Origin: Streptomyces orinoci
Lineage (GTDB): Bacteria; Actinomycetota; Actinomycetes; Streptomycetales; Streptomycetaceae
Length of the DNA: 64,000 nucleotides
Direction of reading: 5' to 3'
Assembly (NCBI RefSeq): GCF_003121295.1
Contig: NZ_PHNC01000029.1
Coordinates: 1,178,001-1,242,000, forward strand
Below the pieces are notes generated by a model that saw nothing but the letters and a program-made list of their open reading frames with translations, searched no databases and was not told the DNA's origin. Positions within the stretch are counted from its first letter, which is position 1; each line of letters opens with the position of its first letter. The position numbers and the translations under genes are program-made. Of this stretch, positions 791-24,210 are shown piece after piece.

Positions 791-1525
791 GTGATGCACG
801 ACTCGCACCATCCCGACGATGGCCGCGACGAGCCGACGCCGCTAACGAAGTCGCCTACGCTGATAGGGCGTTTGCGGCGTGCGTTCGGACGGGCTGCCCC
901 TGGCGGAGCCAGTAGTACCCCGAGTCCGACTCAAGGCCGGACTTCGGGGGTCCCCGCCCCGGGGGTGGCGGAGACGGCCCAGCGCCAGGGGGCGCAGGAC
1001 CAGGAGGCCGGGGCCGAGGGCGGCCCCGACCCGGACACCCTCCACGCCGCCCAGCAAGCCGTCCTCCGCCCCGTACGCTCCGCCGAGACCGCAGCCGGCG
1101 AGCCCACCGTGAAGAGCGTCCAGCCCACGATCCGCCGTTTCACCGGCACCAAGCGCACCGTCCGCGTCGGCCCCATGCTCTTCACCGATGACGAGGACAG
1201 CCGCCTCCAAGAGGCGGCCACCGAGCACGGCTACAAGGGCAAGTCCGGCTTTGCCGCCGACGTCGTCCTCGCCTTCATCACCGGCCGGTTCACCGCCAAC
1301 CTGCCCCTGTCCGAGGACCGCCGCCGCACCCACATCTTCCGCGCCCAGGTCCTGCGCCAGCTCAACCGCATCGGCGTCAACGTCAACCAGATCGCCCGCG
1401 CCCTCAACAGCGACCACACCCCACCCGACCTCCGCCAGCACCTTGACGAACTCCACCAGCTGCTCACCGTGATCGCCGAAGCCCTGCGCCAGCCCGCCGA
1501 CCCAACGGAGGACCTGGCCGCATGA
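791..1525 (+). CDS. MobC-like relaxosome accessory protein
   Basis: 244 residues. The first 110 are low-complexity and polar. The C-terminal half (about 115-235) has an MTRF-like segment (RVGPMLFTDDED) followed by helices ending in the signature QLNRIGVNVNQIARALN, typical of MobC/MbeC relaxosome proteins that open oriT and assist the relaxase. A GGAG at 779-782 favours the GTG at 791 over the ATG at 794. The stop overlaps the relaxase start by 4 bases, so the two are translationally coupled. No oriT was recognised with confidence, though the 617-790 gap is a reasonable place for one. Confidence 0.8.
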   Translation: MMHDSHHPDDGRDEPTPLTKSPTLIGRLRRAFGRAAPGGASSTPSPTQGRTSGVPAPGVAETAQRQGAQDQEAGAEGGPDPDTLHAAQQAVLRPVRSAETAAGEPTVKSVQPTIRRFTGTKRTVRVGPMLFTDDEDSRLQEAATEHGYKGKSGFAADVVLAFITGRFTANLPLSEDRRRTHIFRAQVLRQLNRIGVNVNQIARALNSDHTPPDLRQHLDELHQLLTVIAEALRQPADPTEDLAA

Positions 1526-3258
1526 TCGCCGCCATAAAATCGCCCGGCTCCAACACCCGTGGCCTCCTGGCCTACCTCTACAGCCCCGGGCGCCAGGACG
1601 AACACCTCGACCCGCACATCGTGGCGGGATTCGCGATGCTCGGCATGCCCGACCCCGGCCGCGACGAGAACGCCACCCTCACCGAACTCGCCCGCTACCT
1701 CGACGAACCCGTCCACCTGCGCAACAGCGAGTTCGGCAAGAAGATCACCGACCACGTCTGGCACTGCCCCGTCCGCGCCGCACCCGAAGACCGCTACCTC
1801 TCCGACACCGAATGGGGCGAGATCGCCCAGCGCATCGTCCAAGCCGCCGGCATCGCCCCCACCGGTGACGACCTCGCCTGCCGCTGGATCGCCGTACGCC
1901 ACGCCGACGACCACATCCACATCCTCGCCACCACCGTCCGCGAAGACGGCCGCCGACCCAAACTCCACGACAGCGGCATCCGCGTCGGCGACGAATGCCG
2001 CCAGATCGAAAAGGACTACGGCCTGCGCCGCCTGAAAAAGGGCGACCGCACCGGCACCCGCCGCCCCACCCAGGCCGAGATGCACAAGGCCAAGCGCATG
2101 GGCTGGGAACAGACCAGCCAGCAGTGGCTCGAAGACCGCATCCGCGCCGCCATCCCCCACACCGGCACCGCCGAGGAACTCCTCGCCTACCTCGAAGCCG
2201 ACGGCATCGAAGTCAAGCCCAAGCGCGGCCCCTCCGGAGACCTTCTCGGCTACGCCGTCGGCCGCCCCGGCGACCTCAACGAAGACGGCGAACAGATCTA
2301 CTACCCCGGCGGGAAGATCGCCCCCGACCTCTCCCTGCCCAAACTCAAAGCCCGCCTGGAAACCAGCGCACCCGAGGAACACCCCACCGCACGCCGCAAC
2401 CGGCCCAGCACCCCTTGGCAACGGGCCACCGAGGCCCTCGACACCCTCCACACCGAGATCACCGACACCACAACCGGCGACGGTGGTGACGCGCGGACCC
2501 AGGCACACATCACCGCCCTCGGCGAACTGATCGAAGCCACCGCCCAGAAAGCCCCCACCGACCTGCGCGCCCAACTACATGCAGCCAGCAGGGAATTCGC
2601 CCGCGCTCAGCGATCCCAGATCCGGGCAGAAGACCGAGCCGCCCACACCCTGCGCACCGCAGCACGCGACATCGTCAACACCGCAACCGGCCCCGACGGC
2701 AGCGCGCTTGCCACCCTCGTCGCCGCCCTGGTCTGGGCCGCCATCCTCGCCGCACGCTGGCACGAGGCCAAGGGCCACGCCCATCAGGCCGATGCAGCCC
2801 GCCGAGCCGTCCATCACCTTCAGGCAGCGGCCGACGCTGCCATCATCCCCACGCTCATCGAACTCGAAGCCCGTCGCCCCAACGAGGAAACCAGCCGCAC
2901 CCTGGCCAGCGACGTACGCGCCGCCATCCCCGAACACGCCAACCGGATCCTCACCGACCCCAGTTGGCCCGCCCTCGCCACCGTCCTCGCCGACGCCGAA
3001 GCCGGCGGCCACAAACCCCACCAGCTCCTCAAGGAAGCCGCCACCCAACGTGAACTGACCACCGCCCGCCAACCAGCCCGCGTCCTGATCACCCGCATCC
3101 AGCACACGGCCCGTAACCCCGTGCCCAACCGCCGCGCCGAAGCAGCCCGCCGACGCTCAACCACCACGGCCACGACATCCGCTCAGCAGACCCGAACGGA
3201 CCAACTCCCAGTCACACTCCTGGCGCCCACCGAACTGCAGCACCGTCAACGCCGATAG
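1522..3258 (+). CDS. Relaxase/mobilization nuclease
   Basis: 578 residues. The N-terminal 250 form a relaxase domain. The metal-binding histidine motif is RHADDHIHI near residue 130, and an upstream HVWHCPV segment forms part of the active site. The N-terminal tyrosines (AYLYSPG, residues 17-23) are candidates for the nucleophile. The second half is Ala/Arg-rich and helical with one hydrophobic stretch (LATLVAALVWAAILAARW). It would nick oriT and pilot the strand in conjugative mobilization. It is coupled to mobC through an ATGA overlap. The element appears mobilizable; whether a TraB/FtsK translocase exists upstream cannot be seen. Confidence 0.88.
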   Translation: MIAAIKSPGSNTRGLLAYLYSPGRQDEHLDPHIVAGFAMLGMPDPGRDENATLTELARYLDEPVHLRNSEFGKKITDHVWHCPVRAAPEDRYLSDTEWGEIAQRIVQAAGIAPTGDDLACRWIAVRHADDHIHILATTVREDGRRPKLHDSGIRVGDECRQIEKDYGLRRLKKGDRTGTRRPTQAEMHKAKRMGWEQTSQQWLEDRIRAAIPHTGTAEELLAYLEADGIEVKPKRGPSGDLLGYAVGRPGDLNEDGEQIYYPGGKIAPDLSLPKLKARLETSAPEEHPTARRNRPSTPWQRATEALDTLHTEITDTTTGDGGDARTQAHITALGELIEATAQKAPTDLRAQLHAASREFARAQRSQIRAEDRAAHTLRTAARDIVNTATGPDGSALATLVAALVWAAILAARWHEAKGHAHQADAARRAVHHLQAAADAAIIPTLIELEARRPNEETSRTLASDVRAAIPEHANRILTDPSWPALATVLADAEAGGHKPHQLLKEAATQRELTTARQPARVLITRIQHTARNPVPNRRAEAARRRSTTTATTSAQQTRTDQLPVTLLAPTELQHRQRR

Positions 3259-6901: not shown

Positions 6902-7945
6902 TCAGCCGAAGACCAACCCCCGGAAGGCGTTGCGGATGCTGGTCAGGGGCTCGCGGTCACGTGTGTAGTAGAGCTTGTTGGTCAACAGGACGGCCCAGGT
7001 GCCCTGTTTAGGGGAGATCCACATACCGGTGCCGGTGAAGCCGTAATGGACGTACGTGCGGTCTGCTGGATCCGTGCCGGGGGCAGGGTGCCAGAACAGG
7101 CCGCGGACGGGTTCCAGGGTGCCGGTCTGGACGGTCAGGGACTCCTCGACCCAGTTCGGCCCGAACCCGGGTGACGCCGGGGCGGTGGCGGGGTCGAGCA
7201 TGTACCGCAAAAAGCGGGCGAGGTCGTCGAGGACGGAGAAGGCGCCGGCGATGCCGCAGACGCCGCCGAGGAGGCGGGCGGAGAAGTCGTGGGCGGTGCC
7301 TTTGAGGTGGCGGCCGGTGTCCTGGTCGAGCTCGGTGGGGGCACAGCGGGCGGCCAGCTCGGTCGGCAGCGGCCCGAAGCGGGTGTGGGTCATGCCCAGG
7401 GGCTGCCAGATTCGGGTGTGGGCGAGCTGGTCGAGGGGCTGGCCGGAGAGGTGCTCGGCGAGGTAGCCGAGGATGAGGGCGGCCCGGTCGGTGTACTCGA
7501 CGGCTTCGCCGGGCGGCCGGTGCAGGGCCTCGTGAAGGACGCCTGCACGGATGGTGGCGGGCTCGGTGCCGTAGAGGTTCTTGAGCTGGGCCCGCAGCGG
7601 TACGCCGGCGGTGTGGGTCAGCAGCTGCCGGGCGGTCACCTGGCCGAGGGGGTGCCCGCTGACCTCGGTCCAGAAGGTGCCGAGGGGGTCGTCGAGCGGG
7701 AAGGCGTCGTCTTCCCACAGGGCACCGATGGTGGACCAGACGGCGAGGATCTTGGTGAGGCTGGCGACGTCGAAGACCGTGCCGGGCCGCATCGAGGTGT
7801 CCGGCTCGGCGGGATCGAGGAGGCCGGCGGTTCCTCCGGCCTTTATGCCCGCGGCGTCTCCCATGGCCCACACCGCGCCGGGGTAGACCTGGTCGCGGAC
7901 GCCGTCCGCCACGAGCTGCTTGATCCGGTCGGTGCTGTCTGCCAT
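6902..7945 (-). CDS. Serine hydrolase, class C beta-lactamase family
   Basis: 347 residues with no signal peptide, so probably cytoplasmic. The family's nucleophile motif SxxK is SLTK (about residue 62), within DVASLTKILA. A YTD triad (EYTDRAALILG) occupies the YxN position, and HYGFTGT near residue 302 occupies the HxG/KTG position. This matches the beta-lactamase/transpeptidase-like esterases and peptidases rather than true resistance enzymes. It lies 85 bp downstream of the glycosyltransferase on the same strand and could be the last gene of that operon or a separate unit. Confidence 0.85.
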   Translation of the reverse strand: MADSTDRIKQLVADGVRDQVYPGAVWAMGDAAGIKAGGTAGLLDPAEPDTSMRPGTVFDVASLTKILAVWSTIGALWEDDAFPLDDPLGTFWTEVSGHPLGQVTARQLLTHTAGVPLRAQLKNLYGTEPATIRAGVLHEALHRPPGEAVEYTDRAALILGYLAEHLSGQPLDQLAHTRIWQPLGMTHTRFGPLPTELAARCAPTELDQDTGRHLKGTAHDFSARLLGGVCGIAGAFSVLDDLARFLRYMLDPATAPASPGFGPNWVEESLTVQTGTLEPVRGLFWHPAPGTDPADRTYVHYGFTGTGMWISPKQGTWAVLLTNKLYYTRDREPLTSIRNAFRGLVFG

Positions 7946-8030: not shown

Positions 8031-9137
8031 TCAGCTGATCCGGTGGCCGAGTTCGGTCAGGGCCTTGGCGGTGGCGCTGAGCGGGTAGCGGGCCGCGTTG
8101 GCCTGTCCGGCCTGGCGCAGGGCCGCCAGCAGGCCGGGGGTGGTGCGGAGGCGGTCGATGTCGCGGGCGAGGGCGGCGGGGCGGGTGAAGTCGGTGCTGG
8201 TGCCGGAGGCGGCGAGGGCGTCCACCAGGCCGGGGACGGGCTGGTAGAGCACGGGCAGGCCGCAGGCTTGGGCTTCGAGGGCGACCAGGCCCATGGCTTC
8301 GAGGGTGGTGGAGGGCATGACGAGCAGGTCATGGTCGGCGAAGGTCCGCCACAGCTGTGGCCGACGGAGCCAGCCGAGGTAGCGGACCTTGGCCCCGGAC
8401 TGCCGTATGGCGCGGGTGAGGGTGTGGAACTGGTCTTGCGGGGCGGCGATGCTCAGCTCGACACCGGTGACGGCTGCCAGGGCCCGCAGCAGGTTCTCCG
8501 CTCCCTTCTCCGGGGTGAGCCGCCCGGCGTACAGCAGCCGGAACGGGCCGCCGGACGGCCGGGACGGTCTGCGTGGCGGGTGGGTCAGGAGCTGGTCGGG
8601 GATGCCCCAGGGGATGTGGGTGATCTTCGTGCGGTCGGTGGTGGGCGCGATGCGCAGGAGCCGGTCAGCCATGGCTGCCGTGGGCACGACGATGGCGTCG
8701 GCGAGATGGACGGTGTCGGTGAGGACCTTGTGCTGGTCGCGGTGGGCTTCAGCGAATAGCAGGTCGGTGCCGTGGACGAGCGCGATCCGCGGGCAGTCGG
8801 GCAGGGCCCTCATCAGCGCGGGGGTGGCGCCGAAGGCGAGGTGCTGAAGGTGCAGGAGGCCGACCTGAGCCGGGTCAACGGCTTCGGCCAGGGCCCGGTG
8901 GAGAGCGGCGACGTAGCGGTGGAAGGCCGGGCCGTCCAGGCACTTGCCGACGACCGGCAGCAGGCCGAGCCCGGTGGGACGGCGGGGGCGGCGGCCGGTG
9001 GGAGCGAGCATGAAGGGCCGGGCGGGGATCAGCGGGCGAGGGCCGGTGTAGAGGTCGAGGAAAAGTTCGACGCTGCCGCCGGGGCTGCCGGCGGGCAGGT
9101 CGAGGGCGGTGGCGACCAGGGGGCCGGTGGTGGTCAT
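8031..9137 (-). CDS. Glycosyltransferase family 4 (GT-B)
   Basis: 368 residues. The C-terminal half shows the family hallmarks: YAGRLTPEKGAENLLRAL (phosphate-binding loop) and an EX7E-type motif, LEAMGLVALEAQACGLPV, that contacts the nucleotide sugar. The N-terminal half has an acceptor domain with HLQHLAFGATPAL and LVHGTDLLF. It should move a sugar from an NDP-sugar to an acceptor that cannot be deduced. The start overlaps the upstream Dcd-like stop by 4 bases, so it belongs to the coupled MurA/phosphoesterase/Dcd operon. Confidence 0.88.
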   Translation of the reverse strand: MTTTGPLVATALDLPAGSPGGSVELFLDLYTGPRPLIPARPFMLAPTGRRPRRPTGLGLLPVVGKCLDGPAFHRYVAALHRALAEAVDPAQVGLLHLQHLAFGATPALMRALPDCPRIALVHGTDLLFAEAHRDQHKVLTDTVHLADAIVVPTAAMADRLLRIAPTTDRTKITHIPWGIPDQLLTHPPRRPSRPSGGPFRLLYAGRLTPEKGAENLLRALAAVTGVELSIAAPQDQFHTLTRAIRQSGAKVRYLGWLRRPQLWRTFADHDLLVMPSTTLEAMGLVALEAQACGLPVLYQPVPGLVDALAASGTSTDFTRPAALARDIDRLRTTPGLLAALRQAGQANAARYPLSATAKALTELGHRIS

Positions 9138-9670
9138 CGCGGGCCTCCGGCGATCTCGGTGTAAAGGCGGGAGATGTCGATGCCCTCGGTGGCCGCGTAC
9201 TTCGCCCCAGGCCGCTGGTAGCTGGCGCGTTCGCCCGCGGTGGCGAGGAAGACGAGCTTGCCGAAGGTCATCCGCGGGTAGATGCGCACCCGTTTGGCGG
9301 CGCGGATCTCCAGGGTCCAGCGGATGGCGTGCCCGACGTGCCCCAACGGTGCGGAGACGTGCACCCAGATGCCCAGCGAGCCGGTGGTGCGGTCGCCGTT
9401 GAGCATCTGCGCGTACGTCTCCGAGCCGGTCCGCTCGTAGGTGACGCCCAGGTAGAGCACGCCGGGTTCAAGGACGGTCCCGGCGGCAGGGATCACGGTT
9501 TCGGTGAAGGCGGTGGGGCGGGCAGCGTCGAGGTCGCCGTCGCAGATCCGTAAGGTCTCCCCCAGCCGCCAGTCGTAGGCGTTCGGGGAGAGCCGGTTGG
9601 CCTCAAAGGGCTCGATGCTGATCTCGCCTGCCGCGACGGCGGCGGCGATGGCCGGGCCAGTGAGGATCAC
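9134..9670 (-). CDS. dCTP deaminase/dUTPase-fold protein, copy 2
   Basis: 178 residues from a GTG that overlaps the stop of copy 1 (GTGA). It begins VILTGPAIAAAV like copy 1, followed by NRLSPNAYDWRLGE and LYLGVTYERTGS. The segment RWTLEIRAAKRVRIYPRMTFGKLVF corresponds to the Dcd core, and the Glu of WTLEI (about residue 120) sits where the catalytic Glu138 of E. coli dCTP deaminase lies. This copy therefore keeps the acid needed for cytosine deamination. The C-terminal tail KYAATEGIDISRLY resembles the flexible lid of Dcd enzymes. It probably acts on a cytidine nucleotide in the operon pathway. Confidence 0.82.
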   Translation of the reverse strand: MILTGPAIAAAVAAGEISIEPFEANRLSPNAYDWRLGETLRICDGDLDAARPTAFTETVIPAAGTVLEPGVLYLGVTYERTGSETYAQMLNGDRTTGSLGIWVHVSAPLGHVGHAIRWTLEIRAAKRVRIYPRMTFGKLVFLATAGERASYQRPGAKYAATEGIDISRLYTEIAGGPR

Positions 9671-10206
9671 GAGGCCGCCGCCTGGGCCGAGATGAGGTCC
9701 TGCCAGGCCCGGGAGGGCTGGGGGCCGAGGGAGCCCTGGTACTTGCCCGTGTAGAGGTCCACGGCTCCGGTGGCCACGAAGAACATGACCTGTCCGATCT
9801 CCATGCCCGGATACACGCGCAGGGGGCGGACGGGGGTGAGCATCAGGGTCCACTGGCCGTGGAATCCAATGTCGCCGATCGGGGCGGTGATCTCGACGAA
9901 TAAACCGAGGCGGCCGACGCTGGAGCGGCCGAACAGCAGCGGCACGAAGTGGTCGGAGCCAATCTGTTCGAAGGTGTGGCCGAGGTAGAGCTCGCCGGGC
10001 TGGAGGACGTAGCCGTCGCCGCCGATGGTGATCACCGTGGTGGGGTTGGGGCGGTGGGCGTCGATGACGGGGGCGGTGTAGGTGGCCAGGGTGGTGCCGA
10101 GGCGGACGTTGTAGCTGTTGGGGTTGACCTGGTCCGCGTCGAAAGGGTCGATCCGCAGCCGCCCGTCCAGGGCGGCGGCGGTGATCTCGGGTCCGGTCAG
10201 GATCAC
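9667..10206 (-). CDS. dCTP deaminase-like protein, copy 1, catalytic Glu replaced
   Basis: 179 residues, ATG start that overlaps the phosphoesterase stop (ATGA). The dCTP deaminase/dUTPase trimeric fold is clear: ILTGPEITAAAL, DQVNPNSYNVRLG, LQPGELYLGHTFEQIG, and VYPGMEIGQVMFF, the last closely matching the Dcd PGM-IGQL core. At the position of the catalytic Glu the sequence reads WTLML, so Met replaces Glu. It may be inactive as a deaminase, act as a dUTPase-type enzyme, or form mixed trimers with copy 2. Its N-terminal half aligns with copy 2, indicating tandem duplication. Confidence 0.82.
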   Translation of the reverse strand: MILTGPEITAAALDGRLRIDPFDADQVNPNSYNVRLGTTLATYTAPVIDAHRPNPTTVITIGGDGYVLQPGELYLGHTFEQIGSDHFVPLLFGRSSVGRLGLFVEITAPIGDIGFHGQWTLMLTPVRPLRVYPGMEIGQVMFFVATGAVDLYTGKYQGSLGPQPSRAWQDLISAQAAAS

Positions 10207-11441
10207 GGCAGGGACCTCTCGTGTGCGGTAGTAGGGGCGCCGGTCAGGACGTGGCGGACGGCCTGGCCGAGGGACATCCCGGCCCGGCGGGTGCGGTTGC
10301 CGAGGAAGTTGCCTGCCAGGAAGTCGGTGGTCAGCACGGTGCGAAGCCCGGGCGGCAGCGGGTTGGGGGCCGTGACGAGCGGGCCGACCCGCTCGGTCAG
10401 GTAGGCGGTCAGGCCGCCAGGGTTGTGGAGGTAGGCGTCGGGGATACGCGCGTAGGCGAGCTGGTTGGCGAACGGCTCGATGGCCAGCAGGTCCCCGAAG
10501 GTCAGCACCGTGCCCAGCCTCTGGGGCCGCAGCACGGTGTCGTTGAGGACCACAGCGTCAGCCCCCAGTCCGCTGTGGAGCCGCAGGGCGACCTCAGCCA
10601 GGACCTGGTGCCGGTCGGGCACCGTGCCGCGGTAGGACTCGGCGATGAGCCCCAGCGGGGCGGCCAGCTTCTCCCGCACGACGCTCATCTGCCGGACGAC
10701 GCAGGCCAGATCGTGCGGCACCGCGGCCGTGCCGGTGGGGAAAGTGCAGGTGTGGGCGGCCCAGACAGCGCCGACCGGTTCGGCCAGTGCATATCCGGCG
10801 CCAAGTTCGCCGCCCTTGACCACGAGTGTGTCGCCAACCGGCTCGGGCGCGTAGTGGTCGCTGTGGCAGTGCCCGGCGAAGATGACGTCCAGGAACGGGC
10901 ACTCGGCGGCCAGTGCCAGGTCCTGCTCGAAGCCGGAGTGCGACAGCAGCATCCACGCGTCGGCCTCGTGGTGGTGAGCCAGCATCAGCTCCCGCAAGGT
11001 CCGCACCGGGTCTGTGACGCGTTGGCCCTGGCGCTGGTGGGCGGGGATGTCCAAGAAAGCGTCCGGGCCGATGACGGCGGTGACGGCCACGCGCCGGCCG
11101 CCGATGAGGAAGGTCCGCAGGCGGCGGAAGAGCGGCTGTCCACTGATGTCGTCGATGGCATTCGCACAGACCGTCAGTGGGCGGAGGCCGGGCTCGAAGT
11201 GGTGGGGCCAGCCGTGATTACCGGGGGCGAGCACGTCATAGAGCCCAGTCAGGACGGCCCGTTCGATGGCGCCACCCGCGAGCCGGTAGTAGCCGCTGCC
11301 CTCGAAGAAGTCGCCGCAGTCCGCGATCAACGAGGTGGGCCGGGCCTTCTGGAGGTGGGTCAGCATGCCGTCAGCCGTGGCGAAGGCGGAGTGGAAGTCG
11401 GTGGTCGCCACGATCCGCTCCAGCACCCGGGCGGCGGTCAC
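10203..11441 (-). CDS. Metallophosphoesterase, 5'-nucleotidase-like
   Basis: 412 residues. The GTG start at 11441 overlaps the murA-like stop (GTGA); the frame stays open further upstream inside that gene but this is a shadow. Calcineurin-type metal motifs occur in order: TTDFHSA (DxH), DCGDFFEGSG (GDxxxG), APGNHGW (GNH), LLSHSGFEQD and FAGHCHSD (GHxH, about residue 190). The C-terminal 180 residues resemble a 5'-nucleotidase substrate domain (GADAVVLNDTVLRP, TFGDLLAIEPFANQL). Expected role: dephosphorylate a nucleotide or related phosphate in the pathway of this operon. No signal peptide, so cytoplasmic. Confidence 0.85.
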   Translation of the reverse strand: MTAARVLERIVATTDFHSAFATADGMLTHLQKARPTSLIADCGDFFEGSGYYRLAGGAIERAVLTGLYDVLAPGNHGWPHHFEPGLRPLTVCANAIDDISGQPLFRRLRTFLIGGRRVAVTAVIGPDAFLDIPAHQRQGQRVTDPVRTLRELMLAHHHEADAWMLLSHSGFEQDLALAAECPFLDVIFAGHCHSDHYAPEPVGDTLVVKGGELGAGYALAEPVGAVWAAHTCTFPTGTAAVPHDLACVVRQMSVVREKLAAPLGLIAESYRGTVPDRHQVLAEVALRLHSGLGADAVVLNDTVLRPQRLGTVLTFGDLLAIEPFANQLAYARIPDAYLHNPGGLTAYLTERVGPLVTAPNPLPPGLRTVLTTDFLAGNFLGNRTRRAGMSLGQAVRHVLTGAPTTAHERSLP

Positions 11442-12775
11442 CAGGTCACCGGTGTGATGTCGGCGCCGAGGGTGCGGAGCTTGCCGGGCAGGTCCGCGTG
11501 GCCGCGCCGCAGCTGGTCGAGCCCGGTCAGCATGGTGACGCCCCGGGCCATGAGGGCGGCGATCAGCAGCGCGGAGCCGGTGCGGATGTCGGTGGCCTCC
11601 ACCATGGCGCCTGTCAGCCGCTGTGGGCCCGCCAAACGACACTGGGTCGGCGACAGCTCGTCGATCCGGGCGCCGAGCCGGGCCAGCTGCGGCAGCAGGT
11701 TGCCGTGGCGGCCGGGGTTGATCGAGTCCCCGAACAGATGGGTGCCGGGCAGGCCCAACGCGAGGGCCATCAGGGCGGGTTCGAAGTCGGCATCCAGGCC
11801 GTTCGGGGCGAGGGACGCCATCGCCCGCACCGGACGGCCGGTCAGCTGACCGGCCGGGTGCACGGTGATCGCATCGGCGGTGACGGTGACCGGGATCCCG
11901 GCCTGGGTGAGTAAGTCGGCCGGCAGCCGGACGTCCGGACCGCGCAGGCCCTCGATCCGCCCGGCGCCGCCGGTGGCCGCGAGTGCACAGGCCAGGATGC
12001 CCGCCTCGATCTTGTCCCCGGGCACCCACCAGTTGAGGCTGCCGCGCGTGCTGTCAGCGGGCGGTCCAAGGGCGATCGTCTCCTCGCCGGCGGCCACGTC
12101 CCAGCCCGATTCCTGCAAGGCGGCCAGGAGGGTGGTCGTCTCGGGCGACAGGTTCGGGTTGCCCACCACGAGGCGGCAGCCAGCGACGACGGCCCGCAGC
12201 ACGGCGGCGACGGTCGCCCCGCGCGAGCGGAACGGCAGGTCGAGACGGACTGGGCCGGGCCTGCGGCTGGAGGCCGTGACGGTGTAGTGGTGGTCCTCGG
12301 CCTGCACCACGTCGCCGAAGGCTTCGTACACCCTGAAGTGCTCGTCCATGCCCCGCTCGCCGATCCGGCAGCCCCCGGGCCACGGCAGCCGCGCGGTGCC
12401 GTGCGTGGCCAGCAGAGCGGGCACCAGGTAGTAGGAGCCCCGGATGCGGGCGGCATCGGCCAGGTCCGGGGCGGTGGGGCCGAAGGCGCCGGGCCACAGG
12501 ATCAGGCTCCCGGGCTCTCCCACGGGATAGGAGAGGCGAAAGCCCGTCCGCTCCAGCAGACGCAGCATCAGCTGCACGTCCGCGCTGGCCGGCACGTTGC
12601 TGAGCTTGACGTGGCGCCGGGTGGCTGCGGCGGCGGCCAGCAGGGGCAGGCAGGCGTTCTTCGAGCCGTCGACCGCGACGGCGCCGGTCAGCGGCTGACC
12701 GGGGCGGACGGTGAGCGTGCGGGGGACGACCGTGGCAGGCACGGTTGCGGGCAGGGGTGTCACCAGGGCCTCCAT
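11438..12775 (-). CDS. MurA-like enolpyruvyl transferase
   Basis: 445 residues. The EPSP synthase/MurA fold is shown by LTGAVAVDGSKNACLPLLAA (MurA SGxKNA motif) and by WPGGCRIGERGMDEH, where the Cys is equivalent to the PEP-binding Cys115 of E. coli MurA. It transfers enolpyruvate from PEP to a nucleotide-linked acceptor. Because it heads an operon of nucleotide-acting genes instead of cell-wall genes, a specialised acceptor is likely. A precedent is the UMP-enolpyruvyl transferases of the nikkomycin/polyoxin pathways. True UDP-GlcNAc activity cannot be excluded. It is separated by 165 bp from the ATPase gene upstream on the same strand. Confidence 0.87.
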   Translation of the reverse strand: MEALVTPLPATVPATVVPRTLTVRPGQPLTGAVAVDGSKNACLPLLAAAAATRRHVKLSNVPASADVQLMLRLLERTGFRLSYPVGEPGSLILWPGAFGPTAPDLADAARIRGSYYLVPALLATHGTARLPWPGGCRIGERGMDEHFRVYEAFGDVVQAEDHHYTVTASSRRPGPVRLDLPFRSRGATVAAVLRAVVAGCRLVVGNPNLSPETTTLLAALQESGWDVAAGEETIALGPPADSTRGSLNWWVPGDKIEAGILACALAATGGAGRIEGLRGPDVRLPADLLTQAGIPVTVTADAITVHPAGQLTGRPVRAMASLAPNGLDADFEPALMALALGLPGTHLFGDSINPGRHGNLLPQLARLGARIDELSPTQCRLAGPQRLTGAMVEATDIRTGSALLIAALMARGVTMLTGLDQLRRGHADLPGKLRTLGADITPVTW

Positions 12776-12940: not shown

Positions 12941-13420
12941 CTAGTGCAGCGGCAGCAGGACCAAGACGGTCTTGCCGCCGCCGTCCTCGTCCCGGGGGAT
13001 GCTGGTTCTGCCGCCCGCCTCCGCGGCCAGGGCTTCGACCAGACGCAGCCCCCACCCCCCGCTGCCGTCGAGGTGCGGAGCGTGGAGTCGGCGGGGCATG
13101 CGCGGGTCGCGGTCGTGGACCGCGACCATCAGGTGCCGGGGGTCCATGCCGAGGTGGACGTCCGCCTGGGCGGAGACTGCGGCGGCATGGCGGACGGTGT
13201 TGGTGACCAGCTCGCTGACGGCAAGCACGGCGGTCTCCACCACGGCGGCCCCCGGCTGCAGCCCCCACAGGCCGAGCTGGGCCGCGACTTCCCGCCGGGC
13301 GGCCGGCACGGCCGCCGGGGTGGCCGGGACGGAGAAGCGCAGCGAGCGGTCTATCACTGCCGCATCGTCGTCGGCTTCGTCCTTCGGTCGTTCGCACCGT
13401 TGGCCTGGCACCACGTGCAT
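12941..13420 (-). CDS. Anti-sigma-factor-type ATP-binding protein (HATPase_c)
   Basis: 159 residues. The GHKL fold is visible: AVLAVSELVTNTVRHA (N box, Asn for Mg), VAVHDRDPRMPRR (D of the G1 box) and GSGGWGLRLVEALA (G2 box). This is the RsbW/SpoIIAB-like group that is abundant in Streptomyces, often orphan, and acts on sigma or anti-anti-sigma factors. A good ribosome site (AAGGAG) precedes the ATG. It may regulate the downstream murA-like operon. A short 3' remnant of a paralogue is found near 21434 on the minus strand. Confidence 0.85.
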   Translation of the reverse strand: MHVVPGQRCERPKDEADDDAAVIDRSLRFSVPATPAAVPAARREVAAQLGLWGLQPGAAVVETAVLAVSELVTNTVRHAAAVSAQADVHLGMDPRHLMVAVHDRDPRMPRRLHAPHLDGSGGWGLRLVEALAAEAGGRTSIPRDEDGGGKTVLVLLPLH

Positions 13421-13680: not shown

Positions 13681-14544
13681 ATGGCCACGGCCAGCGGACC
13701 GACCGTACGCAAGCGTCAGCTTGGAGCCGAGTTGCGGAGGCTGCGCGAGAGCGCGGGCAAGAAGATCGAGGACGTCGCCGAGCACCTGGAGTGCTCGATG
13801 TCGAAGATCAGCAGGGTGGAGACCGGACAGGCCCCGATCAAGGCCCGGGATGTGCGCGAACTACTCGCCTGGTTCGGCGTCGAGGACCCCCTTCAGGTGG
13901 AGGCCGTGATGCAGATCCACAAGGACGCCCAGCAGCAGGGCTGGTGGGCCCACTACGAGGAGGTACTGCCGTCCGGCATGGCCACCTACGCCGGGCTGGA
14001 GTCAGACGCGGTCGCCCTTCGCGCCTACGAGCCAATATTCGTACACGGACTGCTGCAGACCGAGGACTACGCCAGAGCCGTGATCGCGGCGGTGCGGCCG
14101 GGCGAGCCCGAGGAGGTCGAGCGCCTGGTCCGCTTCCGCGTGCAACGGCAGGACCTGCTCTCCCGCCGCCCCGATCCGCTGGAGCTCTGGGTGGTCGTCG
14201 AGGAAGCCGCCCTGCGACGTCCGGTCGGCGGGAAGGAGGTGATGGCGGCCCAGATCAAGCACCTCATCCATGCCGCCGCCCTGCCGAACGTCACCATCCA
14301 GGTCATGCCGACCGCCAAGGGCGCCCACGCCGCCATGGCCGGGACCTTCGCACTCATGGAGTTCGGCACCAAGGCGCCCACCATCGTCTACGTCGATTCA
14401 ATCGCCGGAAACGTGTACCTGGAGAAGGAACGCGATGTCCGCAAGTTCATCCAGACCTTCGACCTCGTACGAGCCGCGGGGCCCGATCCGCAGGACACCC
14501 CCGCCATCCTGGAGAACATCGCAAGGGAGATGCACCAGATATGA
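13681..14544 (+). CDS. XRE-family regulator with DUF5753 domain
   Basis: 287 residues. The ATG at 13681 follows AAGGAGGGG. Residues 12-70 form a helix-turn-helix (LRRLRESAGKKIEDVAEHLE followed by MSKISRVETGQ). Residues 95-280 are a DUF5753 sensor domain (QQGWWAHYEEVLP, FVHGLLQTEDYAR, LPNVTIQVMP). These WhiJ-like regulators normally work with the small DUF397 protein encoded just downstream, which here overlaps by 4 bases. It probably controls its own operon through the palindrome upstream. A truncated paralogue with nearly the same C-terminal sequence lies at 21459-21829. Confidence 0.9.
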   Translation: MATASGPTVRKRQLGAELRRLRESAGKKIEDVAEHLECSMSKISRVETGQAPIKARDVRELLAWFGVEDPLQVEAVMQIHKDAQQQGWWAHYEEVLPSGMATYAGLESDAVALRAYEPIFVHGLLQTEDYARAVIAAVRPGEPEEVERLVRFRVQRQDLLSRRPDPLELWVVVEEAALRRPVGGKEVMAAQIKHLIHAAALPNVTIQVMPTAKGAHAAMAGTFALMEFGTKAPTIVYVDSIAGNVYLEKERDVRKFIQTFDLVRAAGPDPQDTPAILENIAREMHQI

Positions 14545-14771
14545 ACACCCACTACGGCCGGACTGCCCGTGAGGCAGACCTGAGCGGCGCCCGCTGGCGC
14601 AAGAGCAGCCACAGCTCCGGCAACGGAGCGTGCGTCGAAGTCGCCGAGACCGGCGGCATCGTCGCCGTCCGGGACTCCAAGGACCGCAGCGGCCCCGTCC
14701 TGCGGTTCTACGCTGCCCAATGGGCCTATTTCATCAGCACTGCGGCCGAGGAAGCAGCCACCGGGAGCTGA
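14541..14771 (+). CDS. DUF397 protein, partner of the upstream regulator
   Basis: 76 residues with the family signature: ARWRKSSHSSGNGACVEVA, then GIVAVRDSKDRSGPVLRF and WAYFISTA. DUF397 proteins are small cytoplasmic partners or modulators of the DUF5753 regulators. The ATG overlaps the regulator stop (ATGA), giving tight coupling. A close homologue lies at 21826. Confidence 0.9.
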   Translation: MNTHYGRTAREADLSGARWRKSSHSSGNGACVEVAETGGIVAVRDSKDRSGPVLRFYAAQWAYFISTAAEEAATGS

Positions 14772-14952: not shown

Positions 14953-16425
14953 GTGAGGACCAGAACCAACAAGCGGGGGGCGGCGGTCTTACCCGCCGCA
15001 GTTATTGTCGCGGTCCTTCCCTTGATCGCTGCCACACCATCGGCTGGTGCGGCGGCACCCGACCAGCGCAGCACAGTGAAGAAAGGCTCGCCTGCCGCTC
15101 ATCAGGCCACGGACCCGCGCCTGATCGCAATCCAGAAGAAGCAGCAGGTGCTCGACCAGATCGCCGGAGACATCACGGAAGGTCTCTCCGAGTTCGATCG
15201 CGCCAAGATCTCCGGATTCACCGAGGTCGAGGTCGATCCGAACCACAACCACCTGAGCCTCCATTGGAAGGGCACGCCCCCAGAGCGGGTACGGCGCATC
15301 CTCACCCACCTGCCCAGCGGGGTGACGGCCGATGTCCTGCCGGCCCGCTATTCCAAGGCTGATCTCCATGAGGCCCGAACCAAACTGCTCCATGCCGGGA
15401 AGCCGATCGCCCTACACCCCTCGTCCACAACGGACCCGATCCGGATCACCAGCATCGCGGGCGCCAATGACGGTAGCGGTCTGGAAATCACCTACGACGA
15501 AGACCGAGGCGTGGGTCACCGGGACCGGAAGGACCCACTGGCCCGTGACGAGCGCAACACCAGATCCAGCAGGATTAAGGCGCTCACCGATCGACTGACC
15601 GGTATCAATACCATTGCCGTCTATAAGCCGTTGAGCGAGGACCCGGTCGCCAGCAACGGTAATCCGCAGCCGCACCTGACCAACGGGGTAGCCGCAAGCA
15701 AGGCGATGCGCAAACACGATGCACCACCGTGGTACGGCGGCGCGGCCCTGAGGAATCCTTCCGGCGGTATTTGCTCCAGTGGCTTCGCCGTTACGGACAG
15801 CCACGGCAACAACATGCTCACGACCGCCAAGCATTGCGACGGCAAGGACGGCTACTGGCACACCTGGGAGGGCGGTGACGACGTCGGTGTGAGCGACCAC
15901 CTGCAGAGCAACGCCCACGTGGACACCGTGGGCATAGCCCTGCACGACCCGGCCGATGGGTATCTGTACGACGGGGAGGCGAACAGGACCGACGGCTACG
16001 CCAAGCCCGTCACCGGATACGGGCACAACAACGTCGGAGACTACGTGTGTACCGACGGCGCCAACGGCGGCGTGCACTGCAACGTCGTCCTGAGCAAGGT
16101 GGACGTCGGCGTCACCGGGGCGGACGGCGGATACCGCCCCGTCACCGACCTCGGCTACGCAACCGACTGGCCCTCCCACGGCGTTGCAGCGGTCAACGGC
16201 GACAGCGGAGGACCGGTGTTCGTCGGTGCCAACAACTGGACCACCGATGAGGCACGCGGCACGATCACCGCACTCGACAGAACAGTCGCCTGCCCCTCGG
16301 AGCTGAACCCTGACACCGTCCTCGACGGGCACCAGCGGAAACCATGGTGCCTGGCCGGCGTGTACTACGTGCCCATCTACCAGACCCTGCACGACCTGAA
16401 GTGGACACTCAACACCGCAGGGTGA
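14953..16425 (+). CDS. Secreted trypsin-like serine protease, copy 1
   Basis: 490 residues from the GTG at 14953, which is preceded by GGGGGAGCTCCT. A twin-basic N region and hydrophobic stretch (AAVLPAAVIVAVLPLIA) ending at an AGAAA-type cleavage site mark a Sec signal peptide. A charged pro-region of about 200 residues follows. The S1-type catalytic residues are His in TTAKHC (about 291), Asp in VDTVGIAL (about 322) and Ser in GDSGGPVF (about 417). Several Cys could form disulfides. A same-length paralogue is at 27167. It is paired with a single-pass membrane protein downstream in both copies, so substrate or activation may be linked to that partner. Confidence 0.88.
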   Translation: MRTRTNKRGAAVLPAAVIVAVLPLIAATPSAGAAAPDQRSTVKKGSPAAHQATDPRLIAIQKKQQVLDQIAGDITEGLSEFDRAKISGFTEVEVDPNHNHLSLHWKGTPPERVRRILTHLPSGVTADVLPARYSKADLHEARTKLLHAGKPIALHPSSTTDPIRITSIAGANDGSGLEITYDEDRGVGHRDRKDPLARDERNTRSSRIKALTDRLTGINTIAVYKPLSEDPVASNGNPQPHLTNGVAASKAMRKHDAPPWYGGAALRNPSGGICSSGFAVTDSHGNNMLTTAKHCDGKDGYWHTWEGGDDVGVSDHLQSNAHVDTVGIALHDPADGYLYDGEANRTDGYAKPVTGYGHNNVGDYVCTDGANGGVHCNVVLSKVDVGVTGADGGYRPVTDLGYATDWPSHGVAAVNGDSGGPVFVGANNWTTDEARGTITALDRTVACPSELNPDTVLDGHQRKPWCLAGVYYVPIYQTLHDLKWTLNTAG

Positions 16426-20995: not shown

Positions 20996-21007
20996 GCCGA
21001 GCACCAC

Positions 21008-21070
21008 CCGGCAAGGATTCGATCCCACTCCTAAAGCGGGTGTCGGCAGTTCGAATCTGCCCGGGGGCAC
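21008..21070 (+). other. 3' end of tRNA-Arg(CCU): probable integration-site remnant
   Basis: The anticodon loop CTCCTAA, the 3' anticodon strand AGCGG, the variable loop, a perfect T arm (GGCAG-TTCGAAT-CTGCC) and the acceptor strand CGGGGGC-A are present. The 5' half cannot be formed: the bases before the loop do not pair with AGCGG. This is a tRNA 3' segment as left by tyrosine-integrase recombination, and an integrase remnant begins 90 bp away. A related degenerate copy is at 24151. Confidence 0.7.
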
Positions 21071-21077
21071 ATGACGA

Positions 21078-24045: not shown

Positions 24046-24210
24046 GCGTGAGCGGACGGCTCAACACCCGCCATCACAAGCACGATCAAGAACCATGCCG
24101 GGTGCCGCTGACCTGCACGGACAGCAGCACCCGGCACGAACGAACACCCGCCGGCAAGGATTCGATCCCACTCCTGAAGCGCGTGTCGGCAGTTCGAATC
24201 CGCCCGGGGT
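24046..24210 (+). repeat. Second tRNA-Arg-like repeat (related to 20903-21070)
   Basis: GCGTGAGCGGACGG (24046-24059) is followed by an imperfect hairpin and then, from 24151, CCGGCAAGGATTCGATCCCA and a tRNA 3'-like segment with loop CTCCTGA and T arm GGCAG-TTCGAAT-CCGCC. The same three elements in the same order occur at 20903-21070. Here the T stem has a mismatch and the acceptor strand is altered, so this copy is degenerate. The two repeats bound about 3.1 kb. Confidence 0.65.

Follow-up and report, generated by a model that had tools for sequence, protein, structure and literature searches.

Operon architecture at the locus

The window analysed here, i.e., the whole stretch of 64,000 nucleotides from Streptomyces orinoci (contig NZ_PHNC01000029.1, positions 1,178,001 to 1,242,000), contains a minus-strand operon that encodes a MurA-like protein, a metallophosphoesterase, two proteins of the dCTP deaminase (Dcd) family, and a glycosyltransferase. 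Reciprocal loss of active-site residues in the two Dcd-like proteins is the main new finding of our analysis. The original prediction described five genes joined by four 4-bp overlaps; our calls agree with it in coordinates and overlaps, and the letters at all four junctions (GTGA, GTGA, GTGA, and ATGA) confirm this. A serine hydrolase gene lies 85 bp downstream of the five-gene set on the same strand. The six open reading frames (ORFs) are as follows (pLDDT, predicted local distance difference test):

11438 to 12775, minus strand: MurA/EPSP-fold enolpyruvyl transferase-like protein, 445 amino acids (Pfam EPSP_synthase, 2e-33; also motifs, tree, and a structure model with pLDDT 87)
10203 to 11441, minus strand: UshA/5'-nucleotidase-like metallophosphoesterase, 412 amino acids (Pfam Metallophos, 3.1e-05)
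9667 to 10206, minus strand: Dcd1, the "beta" subunit (Pfam DCD, 9.6e-42); motif II Ser-Ser/Arg, motif III Asp, and C-terminal lid present, Met for the deaminase Glu
9134 to 9670, minus strand: Dcd2, the "alpha" subunit (Pfam DCD, 1.6e-22); deaminase Glu present, motif II Ser/Arg and motif III Asp lost
8031 to 9137, minus strand: GT4-family glycosyltransferase, 368 amino acids (Pfam Glycos_transf_1, 1.3e-20)
6902 to 7945, minus strand: beta-lactamase-fold serine hydrolase, the sixth member (Pfam, 4.7e-45)

The metallophosphoesterase has weak PDB matches to SoxB and 5'-nucleotidases, and its motifs TTD.HS, DCGDF, NHGW, LSHSGF, and GHCHS resemble metal ligands and are invariant or nearly so over 32 rows. 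The solved structures nearest to the glycosyltransferase are distant, with a tetrahydrobiopterin glucosyltransferase matching at 7.6e-10.

Reciprocal active-site loss in the Dcd pair

Both Dcd-like proteins share the DCD domain of the dCTP deaminase/DCD-DUT/trimeric dUTPase superfamily, and against the NCBIfam dCTP deaminase model TIGR02274 (cut-off 92.8 bits) Dcd1 scores 104.7 bits and Dcd2 58.5 bits. What sets the operon apart from known members of the superfamily is a pair of genes whose products have each lost active-site residues that the other retains. Residue columns were placed on the Mycobacterium tuberculosis chain, and we name them by what we take to be the E. coli DCD numbering and roles (Ser111, Arg115, and Glu138). 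The motif II Ser and Arg are needed in E. coli DCD.

We refer to the window's kind of operon as type A. Among type A rows, which were sorted by profile independently of the scored columns and pooled from both genome sets with overlapping genomes included, all 108 rows of Dcd1 carry the Ser, Ser, and Arg of motif II, and 107 carry the motif III Asp, the remaining row having a gap there; at the position of the deaminase Glu, 106 rows have Met, one has Gln, and one has a gap. Dcd2 is the reverse, with the deaminase Glu, His in place of the motif III Asp, and loss of the motif II Arg each found in 109/109 rows. The same Asp, Ser, and Arg states recur in a further 16 alpha and 15 beta type A rows from family genomes, labelled via the Glu column. 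All five columns (Ser, Ser, Arg, Asp, and Glu) are retained in 8 housekeeping-type rows, a limited control, as three of these rows owe their label to Glu and Asp themselves and four were chosen for their motif II letters. The deaminase Glu and the motif II Ser/Arg are found together in neither Dcd1 nor Dcd2, and the cytosine deamination proposed earlier for this operon cannot be assumed for either protein alone, since Dcd1 lacks the Glu and Dcd2 lacks the Ser/Arg. The tree and the residue columns also rule out that either protein is a housekeeping Dcd. Among the open-licence papers listed by our literature searches, none has a title that names a Dcd pair with reciprocal loss or a Dcd pair in a biosynthetic cluster.

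We found linked Dcd pairs in six other kinds of cluster (L097-L114, L131, and L132), described here from a Pfam scan of one representative per gene:

Kind B (4 loci): methyltransferase-like protein, phosphoesterase, TauD, Dcd pair, PIG-L, WbqC, GT4, and an aminoacyl-tRNA synthetase-like (aaRS-like) protein
Kind C (4 loci): P450, Dcd pair, aaRS-like protein, methyltransferase, and AAA_33 P-loop protein
Kind D (6 loci): k12 (P-loop kinase-like by reading of its letters; one member scanned, no Pfam match), Dcd pair, cytidine-deaminase-like protein (slightly below the Pfam cut-off), nucleotidyltransferase, glycosyltransferase, and HAD protein
Kind E (3 loci): a Dcd that carries fused PPDK and PEP-utiliser domains; its alpha partner lies approximately 8 to 10 kb away
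Kind F (1 locus): k12 and Dcd pair
Kind G (2 loci): Dcd pair, a related glycosyltransferase, and HIT, MFS, methyltransferase, and ATP-grasp proteins

The fusion of Dcd with PPDK_N and PEP-utilizers domains lies at L110:12602-15100, with similar ones in L111 and L112, and its cluster also holds DUF6001 and DUF6031 proteins. Judged by their gene content, several of these clusters resemble uncharacterised biosynthetic clusters.

In 20 of 20 pairs from the six other kinds, one partner has the Glu without the Asp while the other has the Asp and the lid with Gln or Met in the Glu column; because alpha and beta were assigned here via the Glu column, independent evidence outside type A comes from the Asp, lid, and motif II columns only. 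The Glu/Asp split was likewise present in all 6 plasmid-borne pairs read, one of them in Rhizobium etli (7 of 14 plasmid records read). A Paenibacillus Dcd without a partner retained both Glu and Asp. The Rhizobium etli plasmid pair (L284:9001-10030), outside the Actinobacteria, lies near a methyltransferase and a NUDIX protein. In a Dcd tree of 66 rows the alpha proteins form a single clade (99/94), and a single duplication, with beta nearer to the ancestor, would be the simplest reading of these sequences.

The alpha protein of kinds A, E, and G has lost the motif II Ser or Arg. Because of this loss, the Glu and the Ser/Arg could meet in these kinds only at the interface between alpha motif III and beta motif II. 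As PMC12524310 describes, trimeric dUTPases build their site from motif III of one subunit and motifs I, II, and IV of its neighbour. According to the same paper, the viral monomeric dUTPases are duplicated and keep a single site. The herpesvirus-type enzyme thus resembles the Dcd pair in retaining one of the possible sites of a duplicated fold, and differs from it in that its copies are fused while those described here are separate, overlapping bacterial genes.

Judging from these residue patterns, we consider it likely that Dcd1 and Dcd2 form one heteromeric enzyme. Alpha and beta would assemble into a single DCD-fold enzyme. Alpha would supply the Glu-bearing motif III of its working site, and beta would supply the C-terminal lid and the motif II with Ser/Arg, while the opposite interface would be dead. 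Such a composite site predicts that neither alpha alone nor beta alone is active. Its substrate would be a pyrimidine nucleotide. Because the motif III Asp is not restored in the composite site, the enzyme may act on a substrate other than dCTP or catalyse a reaction other than deamination; given that this Asp is gone from the active half, the simplest guess would be the deamination of a cytosine ribonucleotide or a sugar-modified one.

An alternative, which we regard as improbable, is that Dcd1 is a dead regulatory partner (e.g., a dNTP sensor) beside a free-standing Dcd2 enzyme, or that the pair splits the DCD-DUT reactions, with deamination at the Glu site and phosphate hydrolysis at the Asp site. 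The Asp and lid are found in beta of all kinds and the Glu in alpha, as this alternative would have it, and we take the DCD-column Asp to be the same residue as the catalytic Asp of dUTPase motif III. Alpha retains motif II in kinds B, C, D, and F, which also favours a free-standing alpha. The motif III Asp of dUTPases is catalytic, according to PMC4827122 and PMC5519681. However, a free alpha of kinds A, E, and G would lack needed residues, having lost the motif II Ser or Arg.

Conservation of the operon and the integrative element

Of 295 genomes of the same genus, 34, including that of the window, hold relatives of the MurA-like protein (protein search, E <=1e-40). Among 35 neighbourhoods taken from the same-genus matches to this protein, 26 hold the six genes contiguous, in order, and without obvious fragmentation, as read from the gene listing. 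The other nine include two cut at contig ends (L067 and L068), five in which one gene is uncalled, split, shortened, or set apart by an extra ORF (L037, L047, L052, L056, and L066), and two decayed remnants with MurA pieces only (L069 and L070). In a second set, the best 80 of 120 Dcd2 relatives from a genome scan, which partly covers the same genomes so that the counts are not independent, the order MurA-like protein, metallophosphoesterase, Dcd1, Dcd2, GT4, and serine hydrolase is contiguous in 66 of 80 loci, including loci of Kitasatospora, Streptacidiphilus, and Promicromonospora. The five-gene order is thus not unique to the window's genome, in line with the original prediction, and the 66 of 80 loci with contiguous order make the serine hydrolase a sixth member rather than the flanking gene it had been taken for. 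In a Paractinoplanes locus (L220) the Dcd2 gene was not called. Of the 78 loci in which Dcd2 was called, 73 also have a called serine hydrolase.

The 4-bp overlaps are also widespread: in the 80-locus set they join the MurA-like protein to the metallophosphoesterase in 73 of 75 adjacent pairs, Dcd1 to Dcd2 in 72 of 75, Dcd2 to the glycosyltransferase in 74 of 77, and the metallophosphoesterase to Dcd1 in 58 of 76, with a further 16 of the last overlapping by 1 bp. These overlaps and the gene presence in relatives come from a simple in-house gene caller whose scoring gives overlaps no advantage, and many of the loci are closely related. The median pairwise ratio of nonsynonymous to synonymous substitution rates was 0.25-0.39 across the six genes (highest single pair 0.61), rough values because synonymous sites are partly saturated; by this measure the six operon genes are under purifying selection.

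In wider searches, the metallophosphoesterase profile matched in 5 of 394 class genomes, in one of them (G206) in another cluster, and the Dcd2 profile matched in 34 of 200 family genomes and 7 of 17 genera with all cluster kinds pooled. A class-level search with the alpha profile recovered mostly housekeeping-type Dcd at approximately 80-96 bits; among the matches listed, scores >150 bits were found in 5 genomes, all of the same genus.

We found that the operon lies inside an integrative element. A tRNA-Arg(CCT) gene upstream of the window on the same chromosome (G000:C22:1172907-1172980) is followed by a phage-type (tyrosine) integrase, DUF3631 and DUF2637 proteins, and then MobC and a relaxase. 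The 3' end of this tRNA gene and its repeat, the far attachment site (attR), enclose 26.1 kb with the operon inside. The features of the element and the operon's flank within the window are as follows:

965 to 1525, plus strand: MobC of the integrative element (domain scan)
1522 to 3258, plus strand: MobA/VirD2-like relaxase of the integrative element (domain scan)
12941 to 13420, minus strand: HATPase_c_2 anti-sigma-type ATPase, upstream of the operon (Pfam/NCBIfam)
13681 to 14544, plus strand: HTH/DUF5753 regulator, divergent (domain scan)
14541 to 14771, plus strand: DUF397 protein beside the regulator (domain scan)
21029 to 21071, plus strand: attR, an exact 43-bp copy of the tRNA-Arg(CCT) 3' end, at the far end of the 26.1-kb element

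The anti-sigma-type ATPase is frequent in relatives, being among the called genes at 67 of the 78 loci that have a Dcd2 call. At the position of the HTH/DUF5753 and DUF397 genes, most relatives in the 80-locus set carry an HTH and flavoprotein pair instead.

Ten other loci on large contigs were searched over 60 kb each for the same arrangement. An exact tRNA 3'-end repeat lies beyond the operon in 5 of 10, at Arg(CCT) (43 bp), Thr(TGT) (45 bp), Lys(TTT) (48 bp), Gly(CCC) (42 bp), and Gly(CCC) in four copies of 32-43 bp; no tRNA attachment evidence was found at the other 5, which have no tRNA within 60 kb. Counting the window's own, tRNA repeats were found at 6 of 11 loci and four kinds of tRNA gene. 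Relatives of the window's relaxase are present in 9 of these ten loci and of its integrase in 3, a relaxase was called within the flank (<=9 kb) of 40 of 80 loci, and one copy of the operon is on a Streptomyces plasmid. Taken together, these sequences indicate that the operon is almost certainly mobile cargo of tRNA-site integrative elements. The window's element resembles other Streptomyces integrative (mobilizable/conjugative) elements in its phage-type integrase beside a tRNA gene, direct repeats, MobC, and relaxase. Its cargo differs in being a conserved, mostly intact multi-gene set, which is notable because the cargo of actinomycete integrative and conjugative elements was frequently pseudogenised in one surveyed Streptomyces population (PMC9513070).

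Such cargo, found at several tRNA sites and on a plasmid and encoding nucleotide-directed enzymes, might also belong to an anti-phage or inter-element conflict system that depletes or poisons nucleotide pools, e.g., through a chain-terminating 3'-modified nucleotide. We consider this highly improbable, given that PADLOC, which covers known defence systems only, returned 0 matches for nine proteins and that other Dcd-pair clusters have biosynthetic-looking partners (ATP-grasp, aaRS-like, and MFS proteins). As for a phage origin of the operon, Dcd2 had no match in 50,697 phage records at 1e-15, yet PHROGs profiles do match, with Dcd1 and Dcd2 hitting a phage dCTP deaminase family (1.8e-43 and 8.7e-19) and the MurA-like protein hitting phrog_25097, a phage family of unknown function (1.1e-63, 216.7 bits); a distant phage link could still exist.

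Three minor observations concern the element. A second copy of the attachment site, 92% identical, lies at 24172-24210, 3 kb past attR, and suggests a tandem (accreted) element or a remnant. ARAGORN calls a tRNA-Phe(aaa) at 21005-21068, overlapping attR, which is probably a pseudo-tRNA created by the repeat. Inside the element, positions 15076-16425 encode a protein with a GDSGGP stretch that looks S1-protease-like by eye and has no Pfam match at 0.001.

The MurA-like protein and the candidate pathway

The MurA-like protein scores 229.5 bits against the NCBIfam murA equivalog, below its cut-off of 392.7 bits. In a tree of 15 rows, of which two sit on very long branches, it falls in a clade of its own (99/100) that is separate both from four housekeeping-type MurA and from a third group, in line with the original prediction. 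Of six housekeeping rows tried from other genomes, three had a usable ORF, and the truncated L258 row was left out. The protein shares the MurA fold and keeps the catalytic Lys-Asn, Cys, Arg, Asp, and C-terminal Arg, and across type A the Cys/Lys/Arg/Asp set shows little or no variation; the roles of these residues are presumably those known from MurA structures. The host's own MurA has the motifs RPIDFHF and SVGAT, while the MurA-like protein has RGMxxHF and SRGA. We take the RPIDFHF/SVGA motifs to bind UDP-N-acetylglucosamine (UDP-GlcNAc). The separate clade, the altered acceptor motifs, and the score below the cut-off rule out a housekeeping MurA, and the predicted structure and motifs suggest that the protein is probably an EPSP-fold transferase with an acceptor different from that of MurA. 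Further EPSP-family and DCD-family genes occur elsewhere in the host genome.

The predicted structure matches MurA entries at Z approximately 41-43 with 24-28% identity (Z 36 for one pseudo-atomic MurA model), NikO 4fqd at Z 38 with 28-30% identity, and AroA entries at Z approximately 32-33 with 16-20% identity. On these values (Z 38 and 29% versus Z approximately 41-43 and 24-28%) the protein is about equally far from NikO and MurA. NikO and PolA make 3'-enolpyruvyl-UMP, which PolJ dephosphorylates, as reported in PMC5365060. The operon resembles that system in pairing an EPSP-fold enolpyruvyl transferase with a phosphatase, and differs in the low identity to NikO and in having a GT4 and two Dcd-like proteins as well. 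That the enolpyruvyl group goes to a nucleotide and not to UDP-GlcNAc, as the NikO/PolA comparison would have it, is possible, if somewhat doubtful.

A competing explanation sees the operon as a route for modifying or recycling UDP-amino sugars or a precursor of the cell wall, with the MurA-like protein acting on UDP-GlcNAc, the GT4 on an amino sugar, and the serine hydrolase on a muramyl-like product. The catalytic set is MurA-like and the best fold match is MurA (Z approximately 43). Furthermore, a second small Streptomyces cluster (L255, L256, L257, and L258, with one copy in the window's own genome) joins a MurA paralogue, a related serine hydrolase, and a GlmU-like hexapeptide protein, with MurB in L255 and, by eye, a similar ORF in L258; its MurA paralogue has Asp instead of the catalytic Cys. 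However, MurB is absent from the operon, the RPIDFHF and SVGAT acceptor motifs are replaced, and the explanation leaves both Dcd-like proteins and the 5'-nucleotidase-like enzyme without a role, so we give it a low probability.

Our favoured explanation, which we hold to be just probable as a whole, is a mobile operon that makes a nucleoside-type compound and includes a heteromeric enzyme of the Dcd fold; a nucleoside-type product taken by itself seems fairly probable. In addition to the Dcd reaction outlined above, the MurA-like protein would transfer enolpyruvate from phosphoenolpyruvate onto a nucleotide hydroxyl (NikO-like chemistry with an altered acceptor pocket), the 5'-nucleotidase-like enzyme would remove phosphate, the GT4 would add a sugar, and the serine hydrolase would process or acylate the product; the order of these steps is a guess. 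Other Dcd pairs have biosynthetic-looking neighbours (P450, aaRS-like, TauD, PIG-L, ATP-grasp, MFS, and methyltransferase proteins). The unusual nucleoside or nucleotide-sugar product proposed earlier fits the parts and the related clusters, while its link to NikO/PolA is unproven, the MurA-like protein being about as far from NikO as from MurA. We also confirmed that no radical-SAM partner (octosyl acid) is present among the 7 operon-region and 9 nearby proteins scanned, the rest of the genome not having been searched.

Several observations weigh against this explanation. Dcd1 passes the dCTP deaminase cut-off, the AlphaFold monomer of Dcd2 reached a pLDDT of 54 and was not used, and the predicted pair cannot rebuild a fully canonical site, since the Glu-bearing half lacks the motif III Asp. 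The reciprocity in kinds B, C, D, and F is confined to motif III and the lid, partners outside type A were assigned via the Glu column, and beta is not one clade, with kind C beta placed beside housekeeping rows (90/92). UDP-GlcNAc could still be the substrate of the MurA-like protein, neither an exporter nor a resistance gene was found within the operon, two neighbourhoods are decayed, and half of the ten loci tested lack tRNA attachment evidence.

A broader and more tentative proposal, which we judge rather unlikely, is that a heteromeric DCD-fold enzyme arising from one duplication and reciprocal residue loss might be the core common to a so far unrecognised class of pathways to nucleoside natural products, borne by mobile elements in Actinobacteria and reaching Rhizobium, of which the window's operon would be the smallest mobile form, making a glycosylated O-enolpyruvyl nucleoside. 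If the favoured explanation is true, a linked Dcd pair (Glu in one, Asp and lid in the other) would be a sequence signature for uncharacterised nucleoside-type clusters, a bacterial dUTPase-superfamily enzyme would have been split into two obligate subunits, and a small-molecule pathway would have been retained intact as cargo of Streptomyces integrative elements.

Lastly, a relative of the phosphoesterase was found at L096:4874-12501 together with sugar-isomerase-like, DegT aminotransferase, radical SAM, nucleoside phosphorylase, thymidylate-kinase-like, and GT2 proteins.

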